From NCBI RefSeq assembly GCF_013307245.1, contig NZ_CP028941.1, forward strand, positions 310,001-374,000: 64,000 nt of DNA. The letters are read 5' to 3'. Positions 27,057 to 36,978 of the stretch are shown piece by piece (within the stretch, counting starts at the first letter, position 1; every line of letters begins with the position of its first letter). This DNA comes from Polynucleobacter antarcticus (lineage in GTDB: Bacteria; Pseudomonadota; Gammaproteobacteria; Burkholderiales; Burkholderiaceae). The position numbers were made by a program, and so were the translations under genes. A model generated the notes under the pieces. That model was given only the letters and a program-made list of their open reading frames with translations. It searched no databases and had not been told where the DNA came from.

Positions 27057-27395
27057 TTATAAAAGAATAGCCTGAATACCCTTCATTTCAATAATTTGAA
27101 GTAACTTTGCCGCTGCTCCACTTGGATGTTTTCCGGAGCCCGTGGCCTCCCATTTTTGAACTGTTGAAACGCTCACATTGAGTAAGGCAGCAAAAATGGA
27201 TTGACTCATTTTTGCCTGATGAATTCGAAGATCGGCTACTTTTTTTGAGGTGAATACAGGTGGCTTTTCTATACAAAGAGCCTTCATCTTTACTAAATCA
27301 TGCTTTGTTAGAAGGCCATGTTGATCCAAGTCCATTGCGATCTCTAACAGCTCATCTAGCACTCGATTTTCTTCCGTTAATAATTTTTTACGCAT
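27057..27395 (-). CDS. HigA-like XRE-family antitoxin
   Basis: This 112-residue protein has a helix-turn-helix in its C-terminal half (IHQAKMSQSIFAALLNVSVSTVQKWEATGSGKHPSGAAAKLL). The W-E-x-G-xx-xPxG-AA-KLL pattern is typical of antitoxins paired with COG4737-type RelE-like toxins. It is the second gene; the toxin is upstream with an 8-nt overlap, the toxin-first order usual for higBA. Confidence 0.82.
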   Translation of the reverse strand: MRKKLLTEENRVLDELLEIAMDLDQHGLLTKHDLVKMKALCIEKPPVFTSKKVADLRIHQAKMSQSIFAALLNVSVSTVQKWEATGSGKHPSGAAAKLLQIIEMKGIQAILL

Positions 27396-27771
27396 AGCAA
27401 TCTAACTCCCGCAATGTTCCAGAAATAACCAGTTCTCGTAACTTAAATATATCGACCCTTTCAAAAGATCTTGCAACAATTCCAGCCGCCTCTTGCTCTG
27501 CATTTGTGAAGTCCGATCCTGAACCACTTTTTTCACGTCCAACGATGAAAATAATGGCATCCTTATTTTTCTTCGCCACAATAGTGCGGATACTTCCACT
27601 CTTGCCCTGCCCTCGTAGCGGGATTCTTTTTTTACAAACTCCACCCCCTAGATCGGCCTCATAGAGTCCTTGCTCTATTTCCCTTGCAGCATTACAAAGC
27701 GAACTAGTAGAAATTATTTTCTTAGCCCAACGATCAAAAGTTTTAGTTTTCATGACTATTTTCATGGTCAA
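27388..27771 (-). CDS. RelE/HigB-like toxin (COG4737 type)
   Basis: This 127-residue protein has the pattern TFDRWAKKIISTSSLCNAAREIEQGLYEADLGGGVCKKRI, RGQGKSGSIRTIVA and AIIFIVGREKSGSG. These match the RelE-superfamily toxins annotated as RelE/ParE or HigB2-like, probable mRNA interferases. A second ATG at 27765 (MKIVMKTK) is an alternative start. It is followed by its HTH antitoxin. Confidence 0.8.
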   Translation of the reverse strand: MTMKIVMKTKTFDRWAKKIISTSSLCNAAREIEQGLYEADLGGGVCKKRIPLRGQGKSGSIRTIVAKKNKDAIIFIVGREKSGSGSDFTNAEQEAAGIVARSFERVDIFKLRELVISGTLRELDCYA

Positions 27772-27949: not shown

Positions 27950-28240
27950 ATGATAGAAATCAGGAAAACAGCTGACTTTAGTGCCTGGCTTGACAGCCTT
28001 TTCGACTTAACAGCAAGAGCAAAAATTCAGGCAAGAATAAAAAGAATAAGTGAAGGAAATGCAGGTGACAGCAAGTCGGTTGGAGAAAAAGTCTTTGAAA
28101 TGAAAATTGATTTTGGGCCAGGCTACCGTGTTTACTTCACGAAGCAGGGGAAAATAATCATCATTCTTTTAATTGGTGGCGATAAAGACTCGCAAAATAA
28201 GGATATTAAGTTTGCTCAACGTTTAGCAAAAAACTTATAA
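27950..28240 (+). CDS. RelE/ParE-family toxin (COG3657 'killer protein' type)
   Basis: This 96-residue protein begins MIEIRKTADFSAWLDSLFD and has the family core ARAKIQARIKRI, VFEMKIDFGPGYRVYFTKQG and IIILLIGGDKDSQNKDIKFA. It is of the HigB-like addiction-module toxin family, usually followed by a COG3636 antitoxin as here (5-bp gap). Its target is presumably translating mRNA, by family analogy. Confidence 0.87.
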   Translation: MIEIRKTADFSAWLDSLFDLTARAKIQARIKRISEGNAGDSKSVGEKVFEMKIDFGPGYRVYFTKQGKIIIILLIGGDKDSQNKDIKFAQRLAKNL

Positions 28241-28245
28241 ATACA

Positions 28246-28551
28246 ATGAAAAAAACAATCACTACCCCATATGATGTTGCGGATCATCTTCGTACTCCGC
28301 AAGAAATGGCTGCGTATTTAGAGGCATGTATTGAAGAATCCAATGGAGATCCAGCATTTATTACAAAAGCACTTGGTGATATTGCTAGAGCCAAGGGCAT
28401 GACTCAGGTTGCAAAAGATGCAGGGCTTTCAAGAGAAAGTTTATACAAAGCCCTCTCGGGTGACCACAGCCCAGGTTTTGACACCATTCTTCGCGTGATG
28501 CATGCTCTCGGGCTCAGTTTTCATGCTGTACCAAGTTATAAAAAAGTCTGA
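28246..28551 (+). CDS. HTH antitoxin (COG3636 type)
   Basis: This 101-residue protein shows the typical start PYDVADHLRTPQEMAAYLEACIEE and a helix-turn-helix VAKDAGLSRESLYKALSGDHSPGFDTILRVMHALGL. It is the cognate antidote of the preceding toxin and probably binds the palindrome at 27923-27944. Its stop is one base before the start of a third small gene. Confidence 0.87.
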   Translation: MKKTITTPYDVADHLRTPQEMAAYLEACIEESNGDPAFITKALGDIARAKGMTQVAKDAGLSRESLYKALSGDHSPGFDTILRVMHALGLSFHAVPSYKKV

Positions 28552-28552
28552 C

Positions 28553-28747
28553 ATGAATCAACCTAATGAAACCCATGAATGGGTTGACCCAGATGATGCG
28601 CCTGAAGCTGATGAGGCATGGTTTAGGGATGCTCATCTTTATATTGGAGACACTCTTATCAAAAGAGGGATTGGGCGCCTACCCATTAAGAACACAAAAG
28701 AAATATTGAGCTCTAGACTTGATACCGATAACTTAGAGCCAGATTAG
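28553..28747 (+). CDS. BrnA-like antitoxin-related small protein
   Basis: The 64-residue product contains [32 protein letters not shown]. Its DDAPE, W/F-F and RG spacing resembles the C-terminal operator-binding region of BrnA antitoxins. No BrnT toxin is adjacent; it follows the HTH antitoxin by one base, so it belongs to that operon. After RG it lacks the usual RPK ending. It may be an orphan BrnA captured as a third component. It overlaps the nadB 3' end by 4 bp. Confidence 0.6.
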
Positions 28748-30405
28748 GTTTCTGGGCTTTCAGAAGTACCCTCAGCCTGCGGGGTCAGGATGGTCGGATA
28801 CGACACTGCCCATGTTCCAGGGTAATCTCGGCTGTAGTGTAGTCCCCTGCTCTCTCGACGCATTAGGGCGGAGCGCACAATCAGCTCTGCACACTCTAAG
28901 AGATTTCTGAGCTCAATTAAATCTCTGCTCACTTTGAAGTTTGCGTAATACTCTTGCACCTCATATCTCAGCAACTTAATACGATGTAGTGCGCGTTCAA
29001 GGCGTCGGTTGGTTCTCACAATGCCTACATAATTCCACATCAGAGATCGTAATTCATCCCAGTTATGGGCGATGACCACTTGCTCATCGGCATCTTCTAC
29101 TTGACTCTCATCCCAGAGCGGTAGCTTTGGCATAGCAGGTATTTTGATACTTCCAATATCTTGAGCAGCGGCCTTACCAATCACAATGCACTCTAGTAAT
29201 GAATTGCTAGCCAAACGATTGGCACCATGAAGGCCGGTGTAGGTGGCTTCGCCTACTGCATACAGTCCTGGTAAATCGGTATGCCCTTTAAGATCTGTCA
29301 CTACGCCCCCACAGGCATAGTGTGCTGCAGGCACTACTGGGATAGGCTCTTTTGTAATATCTAAGCCCAAGGTCATACAGCGTGCATAGATCATCGGAAA
29401 ATGTTCCTTGATAAACGCCTCACCCAAATGCGTGGCATCTAGGTGGACGTAATCAATGCCATGCTTTTTCATTTCAAAGTCGATAGCTCGGGCTACGATA
29501 TCGCGCGGCGCTAACTCATGACGCTCATCATGCTCAGGCATAAAGCGGGTGCCATCAGGTAACTTCAATAAGCCTCCCTCACCGCGCATCGCTTCCGTAA
29601 TTAAGAAGGTGCGATCACTTGGGTGATACAAGCATGTCGGATGAAACTGAATAAATTCCATATTGCCAACCCGGCAGCCTGCACGCCAAGCCATGGCAAT
29701 GCCATCACCCGTAGCGGTATCTGGATTACTGGTGTAGCGGTATACCTTACCAACTCCGCCAGTAGCCAACACCACGGATTTAGCTTCAATAGTTTCAACA
29801 CGATTATTTTTAATATCGAGGGCATATACACCGTAACAACGGTTGGGTTTGTTGCGCTTTGTTTTTGCATCTAACTGTCGATTGGTAATGAGATCGAGTG
29901 CAATCCAATGCTCTCGTAATTCAATATTGTGATGAGCACGTGCTTTATCGAGTAAAACCTCATGAATAGCTTTACCAGTAGCATCTGCAGCATGCGCAAT
30001 GCGACGGTGACTGTGCCCACCTTCTCGAGTCAGATGCAATCCCATCGGACCATTTTTATCAGCAGTAAAAGGAACGCCTTGCTCCACCAACCAACGAATC
30101 GCTTCAGCACTTTCTTCGGCAATATAGCGCGCAGTGGACTCGACGACTAAACCCGCACCCGCATTTAAGGTATCTGCCACATGAGAATCAATACTGTCAT
30201 GCTCTTTATCGACCACACCAACAATGCCACCTTGAGCCCAAGCGGTTGCTGCCTCCCCAAGACCCCGCTTGGCCATGATGATGACGGGCTGGGTTTCAGC
30301 TAGGTGGAGCGCAACGGTTAAGCCTGCTAAACCTGCTCCAATAATGAGAACAGGTAGCTCAGCTTTAGTGTCCGAGGTGCTTTGTGGGGCTTTTGAGCTA
30401 GTCAT
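28744..30405 (-). CDS. nadB: L-aspartate oxidase
   Basis: This 553-residue flavoprotein oxidises L-aspartate to iminoaspartate, the substrate for NadA. It has an N-terminal FAD site ([14 protein letters not shown]), the AWAQGGI and [15 protein letters not shown] active-site regions, [44 protein letters not shown] and [16 protein letters not shown] prefer ATG 30405, which fits the family, over an in-frame start at 30504 inside mazF. The ATG is 2 nt after the mazF stop and has no visible Shine-Dalgarno of its own, so translation is probably coupled to mazF. Confidence 0.94.
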
Positions 30406-30407
30406 AT

Positions 30408-30749
30408 TTAGGAGATTAATAACAAAGCTTTTGCCTTGCTTCTCACTTCTGATAGCGTGAATGCACTCACTTTGTTTTTGAACTTTGCCTTTCTCACCTT
30501 CCAATCTAAGGACTTCAATTGATCAGAAAGAATTGCGGAGTCAATACCGTCCATCTCTATTAACACTTCAAAAGGATACCCTTTAATTTGTGTGGTGAGC
30601 GGGCAGCAAATCATAAGATTGGTTTTTTTATTGTAAAGCTCAGGAGTTATCACCAAGGCAGGGCGACGACCAGCTTGTTCGTGACCAGCTTGCGGATTGA
30701 ATTCCAGCCAAACGATGTCTCCTGCATCAGGGACATAAGCCTTCACCAT
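30408..30749 (-). CDS. mazF: MazF/PemK-family endoribonuclease toxin
   Basis: This 113-residue protein has the PemK-like pattern [52 protein letters not shown] and [13 protein letters not shown]. MazF-type toxins cleave mRNA at short sequence motifs. Conserved Arg in GRRPALV and Thr in PLTTQ are present. It follows the antitoxin with a 1-nt overlap and is itself followed after 2 nt by nadB. Confidence 0.9.
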
Positions 30750-30991
30750 TAAAGCAACTCTTTTCCGACCGATTTACCAAAGTCAATCTCATGATGACTG
30801 TTTTTTGGCGTCATTCCCGCGAGTAGATCATGAAGCTGATACTCTAACTGCGTGATTGGCTCAATAACAATACGGCCTTTTTGGACTTTTACAGAGACGA
30901 GTTGATCAATATTGAGATGGGCAGACTTCATGACGGCCGTATTCAACCGTAAGGCTGGGCTGTTACCCCATTTTTTAATGATTGTTTGCAT
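30749..30991 (-). CDS. mazE: MazE-like AbrB-fold antitoxin
   Basis: The 80-residue protein starts MQTIIKKWGNSPALRLN, the AbrB/MazE DNA-binding fold, continues with DQLVSVKVQKGRIVIEPI, and ends with an acidic/flexible toxin-binding tail (YQLHDLLAGMTPKNSHHEIDFGK). It should neutralise MazF and repress the operon through the repeats at 31009-31045. Confidence 0.9.
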   Translation of the reverse strand: MQTIIKKWGNSPALRLNTAVMKSAHLNIDQLVSVKVQKGRIVIEPITQLEYQLHDLLAGMTPKNSHHEIDFGKSVGKELL

Positions 30992-31008
30992 GAGCGCCTT
31001 TTTAAACT

Positions 31009-31045
31009 GAATGTATCTAGAATGTATCTACATTGTATCTACATT
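31009..31045. promoter_or_regulatory. 11-bp-phased repeats upstream of mazE
   Basis: Three consecutive 11-bp units, GAATGTATCTA (31009-31019), GAATGTATCTA (31020-31030) and CATTGTATCTA (31031-31041), followed by a partial CATTC, lie 18 bp before mazE. The spacing equals one helical turn, as expected for an array of antitoxin-binding sites covering the promoter. Confidence 0.7.
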
Positions 31046-31065
31046 CACGATCTAGAGCAAGATCC

Positions 31066-31092
31066 AAAAACCCCCACTGTAAAGGTGGGGTT
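31066..31092 (-). terminator. Terminator after formate dehydrogenase operon
   Basis: On the minus strand AACCCCAC pairs with GTGGGGGTT around a 7-base loop and is followed by a T run, 18 bp after the fdsA stop. Confidence 0.85.
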
Positions 31093-31109
31093 GGATAGTC
31101 ATGAGTTGA

Positions 31110-33995
31110 TCAGGCGGTAATGTGCTGTTTAGAGTCGTTAGTTCCGTAACCTATCGATACAGGCGCTTTACCACCCTTAGTCAGCTTCACTGCGCAGTAT
31201 TTAAACTCCGGAATTTTTCCAAATGGATCTAGGGCAGCATTGGTAATCAGATTGGCAGCTGCTTCGTAGTACGCAAACGGAATGAAAATCACACCCTGCG
31301 GAGTACCATCATCTCGACGTACATGAATACCTACATCACCACGGCGAGACTGAACAGTAATCACATCACCAGCGACAACACCTAACTGAGTCATATCCTC
31401 ACCATGCATAGATGCTGTTGCAAGCGGCTCAATCGCATCTAAGACGGTGGCACGCCGCGTCATACTACCAGTGTGCCAATGCTCTAACTGACGACCCGTA
31501 ATTAATACAAAGGGATACTCTGCATCTGGGCGCTCATCGGCATGAATAATATCTGCTGGAACTAATTTTACTTTTCCGTCGGCAGTAGCAAACTGGTCAT
31601 CAAAGACAATTGGGCGACCTGGGTCTTCTGCAGATAGACAAGGATACGTCACACTAGATTCTTTTTCGAGACGCTCCCAAGTAATGCCATTAATCGCTGC
31701 ATGCATGGCTTGACGCATTTCATCATAGACGGCAGCTACACCGGCATCCGGGCCTGCGTAATTCCAATTCAGACCCATCTTCTTGGCAATTTCTTGAATA
31801 ATCCACAGATCTGGCTTGGCATCACCAGGAGGATTAATCGCTTTTTTGCCCATCTGCACCATACGGTCGGTATTGCTTGCAGTACCTACCTTCTCAGGCC
31901 AGGCGCTGGCTGGTAATACAACATCAGCCAGTAAAGCGGTTTCTGTCATAAAAATATCCTGCACTACCAGCAGCTCTAAAGAGGCTAGCGCATGACGTGC
32001 GTGATTTAAATCTGGGTCACTCATCGCCGGGTTTTCCCCTTCGACATACATGCCTCGAATCTTATCGGGATCACTATCAGGCGCAGTGATCTTATGCATA
32101 ATCTCGACGACCGTATAGCCTGGCTTCTTATCTAGCGGGGTATCCCAGAACTTTTCAAACCAGGCATGTGCTGTAGGATTATCTACGCGCTGATAGTTGG
32201 GGAACATCATCGGAATCAAACCGGCATCACTAGCGCCTTGCACATTATTTTGACCGCGTAGAGGATGCAACCCAGAGCCGGGCTTACCAATTTGGCCAGT
32301 AATGCTGACTAACGCAATGAGGCAACGGGCATTATCTGTTCCATGAACGTGTTGACTCACGCCCATGCCCCACAAAACCATCGCTGATTTTGTCGTCGCA
32401 AATTCTCTCGCTACTTCACGCAAGGTCTCTGCCGGAATACCGCAAATAGGTGCCATCGCTTCAGGGCTATAGCCCTTGATATTCTCTTTAAGTGCTTCAA
32501 AGTTATTCGCACGATGGGCAATAAAGTCTTTATCTGCTAAACCTTCTTCAATGATCGTATAGATCATGGCATTGAGCATCGCTACATCAGTATCGGGCTT
32601 GAACTGCATGGTGCGCCAAGCATGTTTACCCATATCAGTAATACGAGGATCACACAACACAATCTTCGCACCCCGTTTAGCCGCATTCTTAAACCACGTC
32701 GCTGCTACGGGATGATTGGCTGTAGGATTTGAGCCAATCAAAAAGATCATGCTCGAGTGCTCTACATCATTGACCTGATTACTCACTGCGCCAGAACCCA
32801 CACCCTCTAAGAGCGCAGCTACCGATGATGCATGACAAAGACGGGTGCAATGATCGACGTTATTACTACCAAAGCCCGTACGCACTAATTTTTGAAAGAG
32901 GTAAGCCTCTTCGTTACTACCTTTAGCTGAGCCAAAGCCCGCCAATACCTTATTGCCATATTGGTTTTTGAGTTTCTTAAAGCCGCCGCCAGCAGCTTCT
33001 AGTGCCTCTTCCCAAGTAGCTTCACGGAAAATGCTAGACCAGTCTTGCGGGTTCTGAGTCGCATTCTCATCTTTAGGAACGCCTGTCTTACGAATGAGGG
33101 GCTTAGTAAGGCGTTGGGGGTTATGGATGTAGTCCATTCCAAAGCGCCCTTTAACGCACAAGCGATTATGGTTAGCAGGGCCATCACGCCCTTCTACACT
33201 CACAATTTTTTCATCTTTAACGTTATAGGTAATTTGGCAACCTACGCCACAAAATGGGCATACAGAATCTACCTTGCGATCCACTATTTGTGAACCAATC
33301 AGACCCTTAGGCATGAGCGCACCTGTAGGGCATGCCTGTACACATTCCCCACAAGCTACGCAAGTACTGTCACCCATAGGGTCATTCAGATCAAAAACAA
33401 TTTCACTATGACTACCCCGCATGGCGTAGCCAATCACATCATTGACCTGCTCTTCACGACAAGCGCGTACGCAACGATTGCATTGAATACAAGCATCTAA
33501 ATTGACAGCCATCGCTGGATGGGATACATCACTCGCCACCTTCTCACGGCGCAACGCTTTCAGTTCTGGTCGTACAGTGACATCCATCCGTGTTGCCCAA
33601 GTACTCAGCTCACCATGTTGGTTTTTTTGCTCTTCGGCTTCGCTATCCCCAACCCACTTAAAGCCTTCATCTGGCATATCGGATAACAACATCTCAAGGA
33701 TCAACTTTTGACTCTTCACAGCACGCTCACTTTGGGCTTTGACTTCCATACCCGGCGTAGCGCTTCTGCAGCAACTTGGCGCTAAGGTGCGCTCACCATT
33801 AATCTCTACAACGCAAGCACGGCAATTACCATCAGCGCGATAACCGTCTTTAAAGCACAGATGCGGAATATCAATCCCATGACGTTTAGCTGCCTTGAGA
33901 ATAGTCTCCCCTTCATAAGAAATGATGGTTTGTCCATCTAACTTGAATTCAACTATTTGCAGTTGCAATTCTTTAGCATTTACTGGTGCGTTCAT
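31110..33995 (-). CDS. fdsA: NAD-dependent formate dehydrogenase, alpha subunit (molybdenum)
   Basis: This 961-residue protein has an N-terminal [2Fe-2S] domain (HLCFKDGYRADGNCRACVV), ferredoxin-type clusters (CIQCNRCVRACREEQ and CVACGECVQACPTGAL), a FdhF-type [4Fe-4S] site (CPFCGVGCQITYNV) and molybdopterin-binding domains. The likely Mo-ligand Cys is in DHCTRLCHASSVAALLEG, and GVSQHVHGTDNARCLIAL is also typical. It oxidises formate to CO2 and passes electrons through the clusters to the FdsGB flavin unit and NAD+. It starts 17 bp after the fdsGB stop. Maturation genes fdsC and fdsD do not follow here. Confidence 0.93.
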   Translation of the reverse strand: MNAPVNAKELQLQIVEFKLDGQTIISYEGETILKAAKRHGIDIPHLCFKDGYRADGNCRACVVEINGERTLAPSCCRSATPGMEVKAQSERAVKSQKLILEMLLSDMPDEGFKWVGDSEAEEQKNQHGELSTWATRMDVTVRPELKALRREKVASDVSHPAMAVNLDACIQCNRCVRACREEQVNDVIGYAMRGSHSEIVFDLNDPMGDSTCVACGECVQACPTGALMPKGLIGSQIVDRKVDSVCPFCGVGCQITYNVKDEKIVSVEGRDGPANHNRLCVKGRFGMDYIHNPQRLTKPLIRKTGVPKDENATQNPQDWSSIFREATWEEALEAAGGGFKKLKNQYGNKVLAGFGSAKGSNEEAYLFQKLVRTGFGSNNVDHCTRLCHASSVAALLEGVGSGAVSNQVNDVEHSSMIFLIGSNPTANHPVAATWFKNAAKRGAKIVLCDPRITDMGKHAWRTMQFKPDTDVAMLNAMIYTIIEEGLADKDFIAHRANNFEALKENIKGYSPEAMAPICGIPAETLREVAREFATTKSAMVLWGMGVSQHVHGTDNARCLIALVSITGQIGKPGSGLHPLRGQNNVQGASDAGLIPMMFPNYQRVDNPTAHAWFEKFWDTPLDKKPGYTVVEIMHKITAPDSDPDKIRGMYVEGENPAMSDPDLNHARHALASLELLVVQDIFMTETALLADVVLPASAWPEKVGTASNTDRMVQMGKKAINPPGDAKPDLWIIQEIAKKMGLNWNYAGPDAGVAAVYDEMRQAMHAAINGITWERLEKESSVTYPCLSAEDPGRPIVFDDQFATADGKVKLVPADIIHADERPDAEYPFVLITGRQLEHWHTGSMTRRATVLDAIEPLATASMHGEDMTQLGVVAGDVITVQSRRGDVGIHVRRDDGTPQGVIFIPFAYYEAAANLITNAALDPFGKIPEFKYCAVKLTKGGKAPVSIGYGTNDSKQHITA

Positions 33996-36696: not shown

Positions 36697-36978
36697 ATGG
36701 CCAAAGGTCAACGTCTCAAACCCGAGCAAATCGTCACCCTGTTACGCCAAATTGATGTTTTGACAACGAATGGCAAAACCCTTGCCCAGGCCTGTAAAGA
36801 AGTGGGAACGGTTGAGCAAAGCTACTATCGCTGGAGAAAAATGTACGGCGGTATGCAGGTCGATCAAGCTCGCAAGTACAAAGATTTGGAGCTAGAGAAC
36901 ACCCGGCTCAAGAAGCTAGTAGCGGACTTATCGCTACGAGAAGTGATGCTCAAGGAAGTCATTAAGGGAAACTTCTAA
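36697..36978 (+). CDS. IS-C orfA, transposase HTH subunit
   Basis: This 93-residue protein has an HTH region (LKPEQIVTLLRQIDVL, LAQACKEVGTVEQSYYRWRKMYGG) and a coiled coil (RKYKDLELENTRLKKLVADLSLREVMLKEV). It is intact although the partner gene is interrupted. A good ribosome site (AAGGAG) precedes ATG 36697. Confidence 0.9.
   Translation: MAKGQRLKPEQIVTLLRQIDVLTTNGKTLAQACKEVGTVEQSYYRWRKMYGGMQVDQARKYKDLELENTRLKKLVADLSLREVMLKEVIKGNF

Follow-up and report, generated by a model that had tools for sequence, protein, structure and literature searches.

A mazEF toxin-antitoxin pair abutting nadB in Polynucleobacter antarcticus: probable capture of a biosynthetic gene by a toxin operon

The persistence of chromosomal toxin-antitoxin (TA) modules is a long-standing question. 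An autoregulated promoter with a palindromic operator is typical of, although not universal among, type II toxin-antitoxin modules of the MazEF kind. In Staphylococcus aureus the mazEF promoter is reported to drive the downstream genes rsbUVW-sigB by read-through, and it is needed there for full SigB activity (PMC4885055). According to the same report this promoter is not autoregulated by MazE, a weak terminator lies in between, further promoters follow downstream, and the product is a stress regulator (PMC4885055). In Listeria monocytogenes mazEF is located directly upstream of the sigmaB operon and reported to be co-transcribed with it, yet no effect of mazEF on the transcription of the sigmaB operon was seen in that report (PMC5308263). 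The Listeria result is a warning for an inference of the kind drawn here for mazEF and nadB.

With respect to the start of nadB, the closest described cases are the leaderless genes of Burkholderia cenocepacia and Cupriavidus metallidurans, whose 5’ end is reported to lie at or near the start codon (PMC4603805, PMC7563307). For B. cenocepacia a -10 consensus TAnAAT is given, as part of a motif that spans approximately positions -16 to -8 relative to the start site; in leaderless genes this promoter motif stands directly upstream, in place of a Shine-Dalgarno (SD) sequence (PMC4603805). Unlike those genes, the leaderless nadB considered below is predicted and not mapped, and nadB is unmentioned in the main text of either report (PMC4603805, PMC7563307).

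The locus described here resembles mazEF-rsbUVW-sigB in that a TA promoter would, judging from the sequence, drive the gene past the toxin. Unlike in S. aureus, this gene encodes a biosynthetic enzyme, is only 2 nt away and lacks the motif found in relatives, and a palindrome suggests autoregulation. A toxin operon carrying a downstream gene is known; new is a metabolic gene without the start signal of its closer relatives. Among open-licence publications on TA and nadB, mazEF and NAD biosynthesis, or TA and Polynucleobacter, judged by title and start of the abstract, no similar case was found.

We analysed a stretch of 64,000 nt from Polynucleobacter antarcticus, a freshwater bacterium; this whole stretch is referred to as the window. 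A summary of the features is given in Table 1. The genes mazE and mazF overlap by 1 nt (TAATG). Only the dinucleotide AT separates the mazF stop codon TAA (30410-30408) from the nadB start codon ATG (30405-30403), and the whole reads TAAATATG. Coordinates and sequence thus bear out what the initial annotation had noted, namely the 1-nt overlap of mazE and mazF and a nadB start 2 nt past the mazF stop. It had also noted that nadB is without a visible SD sequence, and indeed AGGA, GGAG and GAGG are absent from the 30 nt before nadB.

Table 1. Features of the mazE-mazF-nadB locus in window coordinates.
Feature	Position	Strand	Basis
nadB, L-aspartate oxidase (553 aa)	28744..30405	-	L-aspartate oxidase models passed; dN/dS 0.024-0.028 against four relatives
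Junction TAAATATG: mazF stop, 2 nt, nadB start	30403..30410	-	Read from sequence; recurs after mazF in six relatives
mazF, MazF/PemK endoribonuclease toxin (113 aa)	30408..30749	-	Family model above cut-off; solved MazF chains
Possible promoter inside mazF, TTTACA-16-TATGAT	30610..30637	-	Scan; chance level
mazE, antitoxin (80 aa)	30749..30991	-	MazE models matched below cut-offs
Palindromic operator-like repeat over predicted -10, presumed MazE/MazEF site	31008..31047		Repeat search
Predicted mazE promoter, TTGCTC (31060-31055), 17-nt spacer, TACAAT (31037-31032)	31032..31060	-	By eye
Terminator-like hairpin followed by T run, past fdh and ahead of mazE	31072..31090	-	Sequence scan
Formate dehydrogenase alpha subunit (fdh), usual upstream neighbour bordering the TA slot	31110..33995	-	Family model

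The family assignments were evaluated using profile models. MazF passes the cut-offs of the NCBIfam MazF model (155.6 bits, cut-off 120) and of Pfam PemK_toxin (91 bits, cut-off 23.1), and it matches solved MazF chains with E-values down to 3.9e-34. MazE matches the MazE models under their cut-offs (61.4 vs 113 for NCBIfam, 20.3 vs 24.7 for Pfam); position and 1-nt overlap fit the assignment. NadB passes PRK09077.1 with 884 bits (cut-off 629), an equivalog match over the protein length, as well as TIGR00551 with 618.4 bits (cut-off 452.75). Two more TA-like pairs are located between nadC and the 3’ end of nadB, at 27057-27771 (-) and 27950-28551 (+) (HTH + RelE PF06296; HI1419/HI1420 type). 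Hence TA modules flank nadB on both sides.

Judged by NadB, the nearest named relatives of the window belong to Polynucleobacter, and the region before nadB was compared in 150 of 186 genomes of this genus. NadB is matched at an E-value of 1e-80 or better in 175 genomes of the genus and some MazF match is found in 84. The remaining 36 genomes comprise 11 without a nadB match at 1e-80 and 25 with a match whose place was not among the matches listed. The 150 loci were split by NadB identity into 120 at ≥ 87% and 30 at ≤ 85%, whereby the split was set after the upstream sequences had been seen.

A -10-like motif TA(G/A)AAT is located 0-10 nt before the nadB start codon in 115 of the 120 closer loci, all in-frame ATGs close to the start of nadB being considered. 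In loci L112-L223, the first 112, there are 101 exact TAGAAT matches, which end 5 bases (26 loci) or 9 bases (75 loci) before the start codon and sit within the consensus ATTGCCCTTTAGAAT. Since this position fits a transcription start site at the start codon as in B. cenocepacia, it is very probable that nadB of the closer relatives is transcribed from a promoter of its own into a leaderless or near-leaderless mRNA.

None of the 30 more distant loci (e.g. L231-L261) shows the motif, and no match to the TA proteins searched was found in these genomes. nadB can seemingly live with another start arrangement, as these 30 genomes do without the motif. In several of them the stop of fdh or of another long ORF is located 2-90 nt before nadB, which suggests a different nadB start or operon arrangement. 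A leaderless nadB across the Burkholderiales was considered and rejected: outside the genus 64 loci were usable, and TANAAT stands 3-10 nt before an in-frame start in only 6 of them (random-position control 0). Hence the start-proximal motif is largely confined to part of Polynucleobacter.

The loci without the motif among the 120 are exactly those of the window (G000) and of genomes G037, G060, G078 and G122. In each of them a toxin gene abuts nadB, with 2, 7, 10, 6 and 11 nt, respectively, between toxin stop and nadB start, and we refer to these loci as fused. The toxin is of the MazF type of the window (MazF1) in G000, G037 and G060, a different MazF/PemK in G078 and ParE-like in G122; each of the five exceeds the cut-off of a PemK or ParE-like Pfam family. 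Motif scores were obtained for 142 of the 150 loci (G134, G021, G015, G181, G024, G117, G137 and G150 were left out as no start was set). The fused loci score between -6.9 and -19.1, inside the null distribution (mean -13.5, sd 5.1, maximum 6.4 of 2740). Four of the 120 loci carry a divergent TAAAAT site with scores of -2.5 to 0.4, and the other scored unfused loci of the 120 reach at least 13.1.

The gap between fdh and nadB represents a slot for TA genes, which are found before nadB in at least 63 of the 120 loci. This number is a lower bound because five of the 120 stretches stop at contig ends (G100, G146, G169, G055 and G175). The slot holds ParD-like/ParE-like pairs, lone ParD-like genes and two kinds of MazEF (e.g. 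L119, L128, L140, L176), and eroded TA remnants are present in G136 and G153. All 58 TA-bearing loci without an abutting toxin keep the motif. In 57 of these 58 (G021 left out) the last TA gene ends at least 22 bases upstream of nadB (median 40), and the unfused modules end outside the predicted nadB -10.

The link between abutment and motif loss (Fisher p 5e-9, a value that takes no account of shared ancestry or geometry and to which we give no weight) is partly geometric, because a toxin ending ≤ 11 nt off leaves room for the motif only inside the coding end of the toxin. The informative part is that the putative promoter motif is dispensed with in no other locus of the 120. The initial annotation had proposed that nadB is expressed with the toxin operon. 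This proposal gains from the comparison, as a motif present in 115 of 120 loci is absent here and is missing among the 120 only where a toxin abuts nadB; the shared transcript itself is a prediction. Moreover, the genus does contain nadB without mazEF at this place. This does not refute the proposal for the window, because those relatives have the motif and the window does not.

Our preferred reading, which we consider probable, is that mazE-mazF-nadB represents a three-gene operon that arose by capture, in which nadB would have lost its own promoter and would be served by the mazEF promoter with a restart of translation after mazF. In the closer Polynucleobacter the nadB promoter would lie at its start codon and TA modules would settle upstream, in the fdh-nadB gap. 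In the lineage of the window the stretch between mazF and nadB seems to be gone together with the nadB promoter, leaving the mazF stop next to the start of nadB. By elimination, nadB would then be transcribed from the mazEF promoter. Ribosomes finishing mazF may restart 2 nt further on at nadB, which is suggested by the spacing and is the simplest route for a gene without SD sequence. Both the palindrome and the family make MazE control and a stress response of nadB plausible; belonging to the MazEF family is not in itself proof of such control, considering the S. aureus promoter reported to escape it. Directly observed are the anatomy, the missing motif, its loss solely at toxin abutment among the 120 loci, the separate origins and the ongoing selection on NadB, whereas we infer from sequence the role of the motif as nadB promoter, the shared transcript, reinitiation and MazE control.

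A tree was built from fdh and nadB pieces of those 113 of the 120 loci in which fdh is matched over at least 140 aa upstream of nadB. On this tree five changes are needed to explain the fused state, and well-supported branches force at least four of them. Moreover, a single clade of the three MazF1 fusions is rejected (p-AU 0.0002, the group being named after the tree had been seen). The motif is kept in the tree neighbours of the fused genomes: G061 for G060, G071 for G078, G009 and G091 for G037, and G012, G027, G129 and G176 for G122. It is also kept in G008 and G125, the neighbours of G000, whereby the placement of G000 is weakly supported. It appears that this switch occurred independently in related species, and with different toxins.

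A possible origin of the mazF-nadB junction is suggested by six relatives (G099, G112, G108, G004, G006 and G044). There, mazF is followed by the same junction sequence, which opens a third ORF, ParD-like (PF11903) in the one tested. The third ORF ends 48-49 bases before nadB and is interrupted in G004. In the window, nadB occupies the place where the third ORF of these relatives begins. The simplest reading would be a deletion from the start codon of the third ORF to the start codon of nadB, removing the ORF along with the nadB promoter.

A transcript shared with mazEF does not by itself couple translation, and nadB without SD sequence might be initiated independently on a polycistronic mRNA. 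We regard this as rather unlikely, though it is the strongest of the alternatives. An SD-like 4-mer precedes just 9 of the 34 long ORFs of the window (similar crude rule), so the missing SD of nadB says little and SD-less initiation may be routine; for this reason we dropped SD absence as evidence of translational coupling. Independent initiation would also agree with the predicted nadB start of the relatives, which has almost no leader. On the other hand, the stop-to-start distances of all five fusions would suit reinitiation.

Upstream of mazE, the terminator-like site between fdh and mazE counts for a separate mazEF-nadB unit. Of 26 loci with the mazE type of the window, 17 show a CCCC..GGGGTTT-like pattern ≤ 110 nt ahead of mazE. 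The predicted mazE promoter shows 8/12 consensus matches, which is below the threshold of the promoter scan; TACAAT is found ≤ 110 nt before mazE in 24 of the 26 loci, the window included. The operator-like repeat is an imperfect inverted repeat with 19-nt arms (84% complementary) and three 11-nt repeats within, and its core recurs ahead of mazE in relatives. The palindrome over the predicted -10 suggests that the mazEF promoter is autoregulated. The three 11-base repeats of the window are located at 31009-31041; by eye, two are present in most relatives.

That the region upstream of mazE is the sole promoter region, as first annotated, is likely. The repeat region is real, but one sigma-70-like match (10/12) is located inside mazF, at chance level (shuffle mean 1.7; 30000-31300 scanned). 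If nadB had instead gained a new promoter inside mazF, the close spacing would be mere compact packing and MazE control would not apply. Candidates would be the match inside mazF and a further TACAAT at -230 from nadB, and in C. metallidurans transcription is reported to start at many positions within coding sequences (PMC7563307). However, promoter-like sites in the scanned region are no more numerous than expected by chance, and an exact TANAAT within 340 nt before nadB is absent in three of the five fused genomes (present in two). We hence consider a promoter inside mazF improbable and prefer transcription from the mazEF promoter.

nadB remains under purifying selection. NadB is intact, and the dN/dS ratios, determined against G008, G125, G099 and G079, are low but rough as dS is high (1.2-2.0). 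For mazF, relatives show synonymous saturation against the window, hence no value was obtained. A search for salvage or bypass covered three families, NAPRTase (PF04095), an aspartate dehydrogenase domain (PF01958) and PnuC (PF04973), none of which was found in 11 of 11 genomes including the five fused ones (the G122 assembly being incomplete), while the controls matched. Based on the intact protein, the low dN/dS and the three families not found, NadB seems to be the principal entry to NAD. A nadB that is needed but seemingly without its own promoter must be served from upstream. An ordinary TA cassette without regulatory meaning beside a dispensable or decaying nadB would fit the frequent and partly eroded TA genes before nadB, but is very improbable in view of the intact NadB with dN/dS near 0.025, the three families not found and the motif kept in the other 58 TA-bearing loci.

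The observation is of greater interest than its first description suggested, since the arrangement occurs repeatedly. Tentatively, and with somewhat less confidence than in its opposite, one may speak of addiction by operon capture: three kinds of toxin would have independently displaced a near-leaderless nadB promoter and taken over expression, tying NAD synthesis to the level of antitoxin. If true, the toxin operon cannot be silenced, deleted or broken in frame without cutting the NAD supply, nadB being maybe the only gene for entry to NAD. Repeated promoter replacement would give a concrete and testable route to persistence, in which a gene that the cell needs has the toxin as its leader. 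Sister species that differ in the fusion represent natural pairs for comparing NAD level and stress behaviour.

An avoidance of MazF sites in nadB was tested and rejected, as the number of ACA triplets is unremarkable (19 vs 20.5, sd 3.0, in synonymous shuffles). Hence the nadB mRNA could be cut by an active MazF if its specificity resembles that in E. coli. Freed MazF could thereby lower nadB mRNA while the derepressed promoter raises nadB, such that the stress response could have either sign. By the same comparison ACA is somewhat high in mazF (6 vs 3.5, sd 1.2) and ordinary in mazE (3 vs 3.2). The count in fdh is low (21 vs 28.8, sd 3.3).

Elsewhere in the window, an ORF at 36697-36978 (+) resembles a transposase OrfA by eye. 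The same genome also contains a second, broken MazF-like gene (G000:C1:749574-749834, L002) with 37% identity and two stops, which is preceded by a MazE-like stretch.
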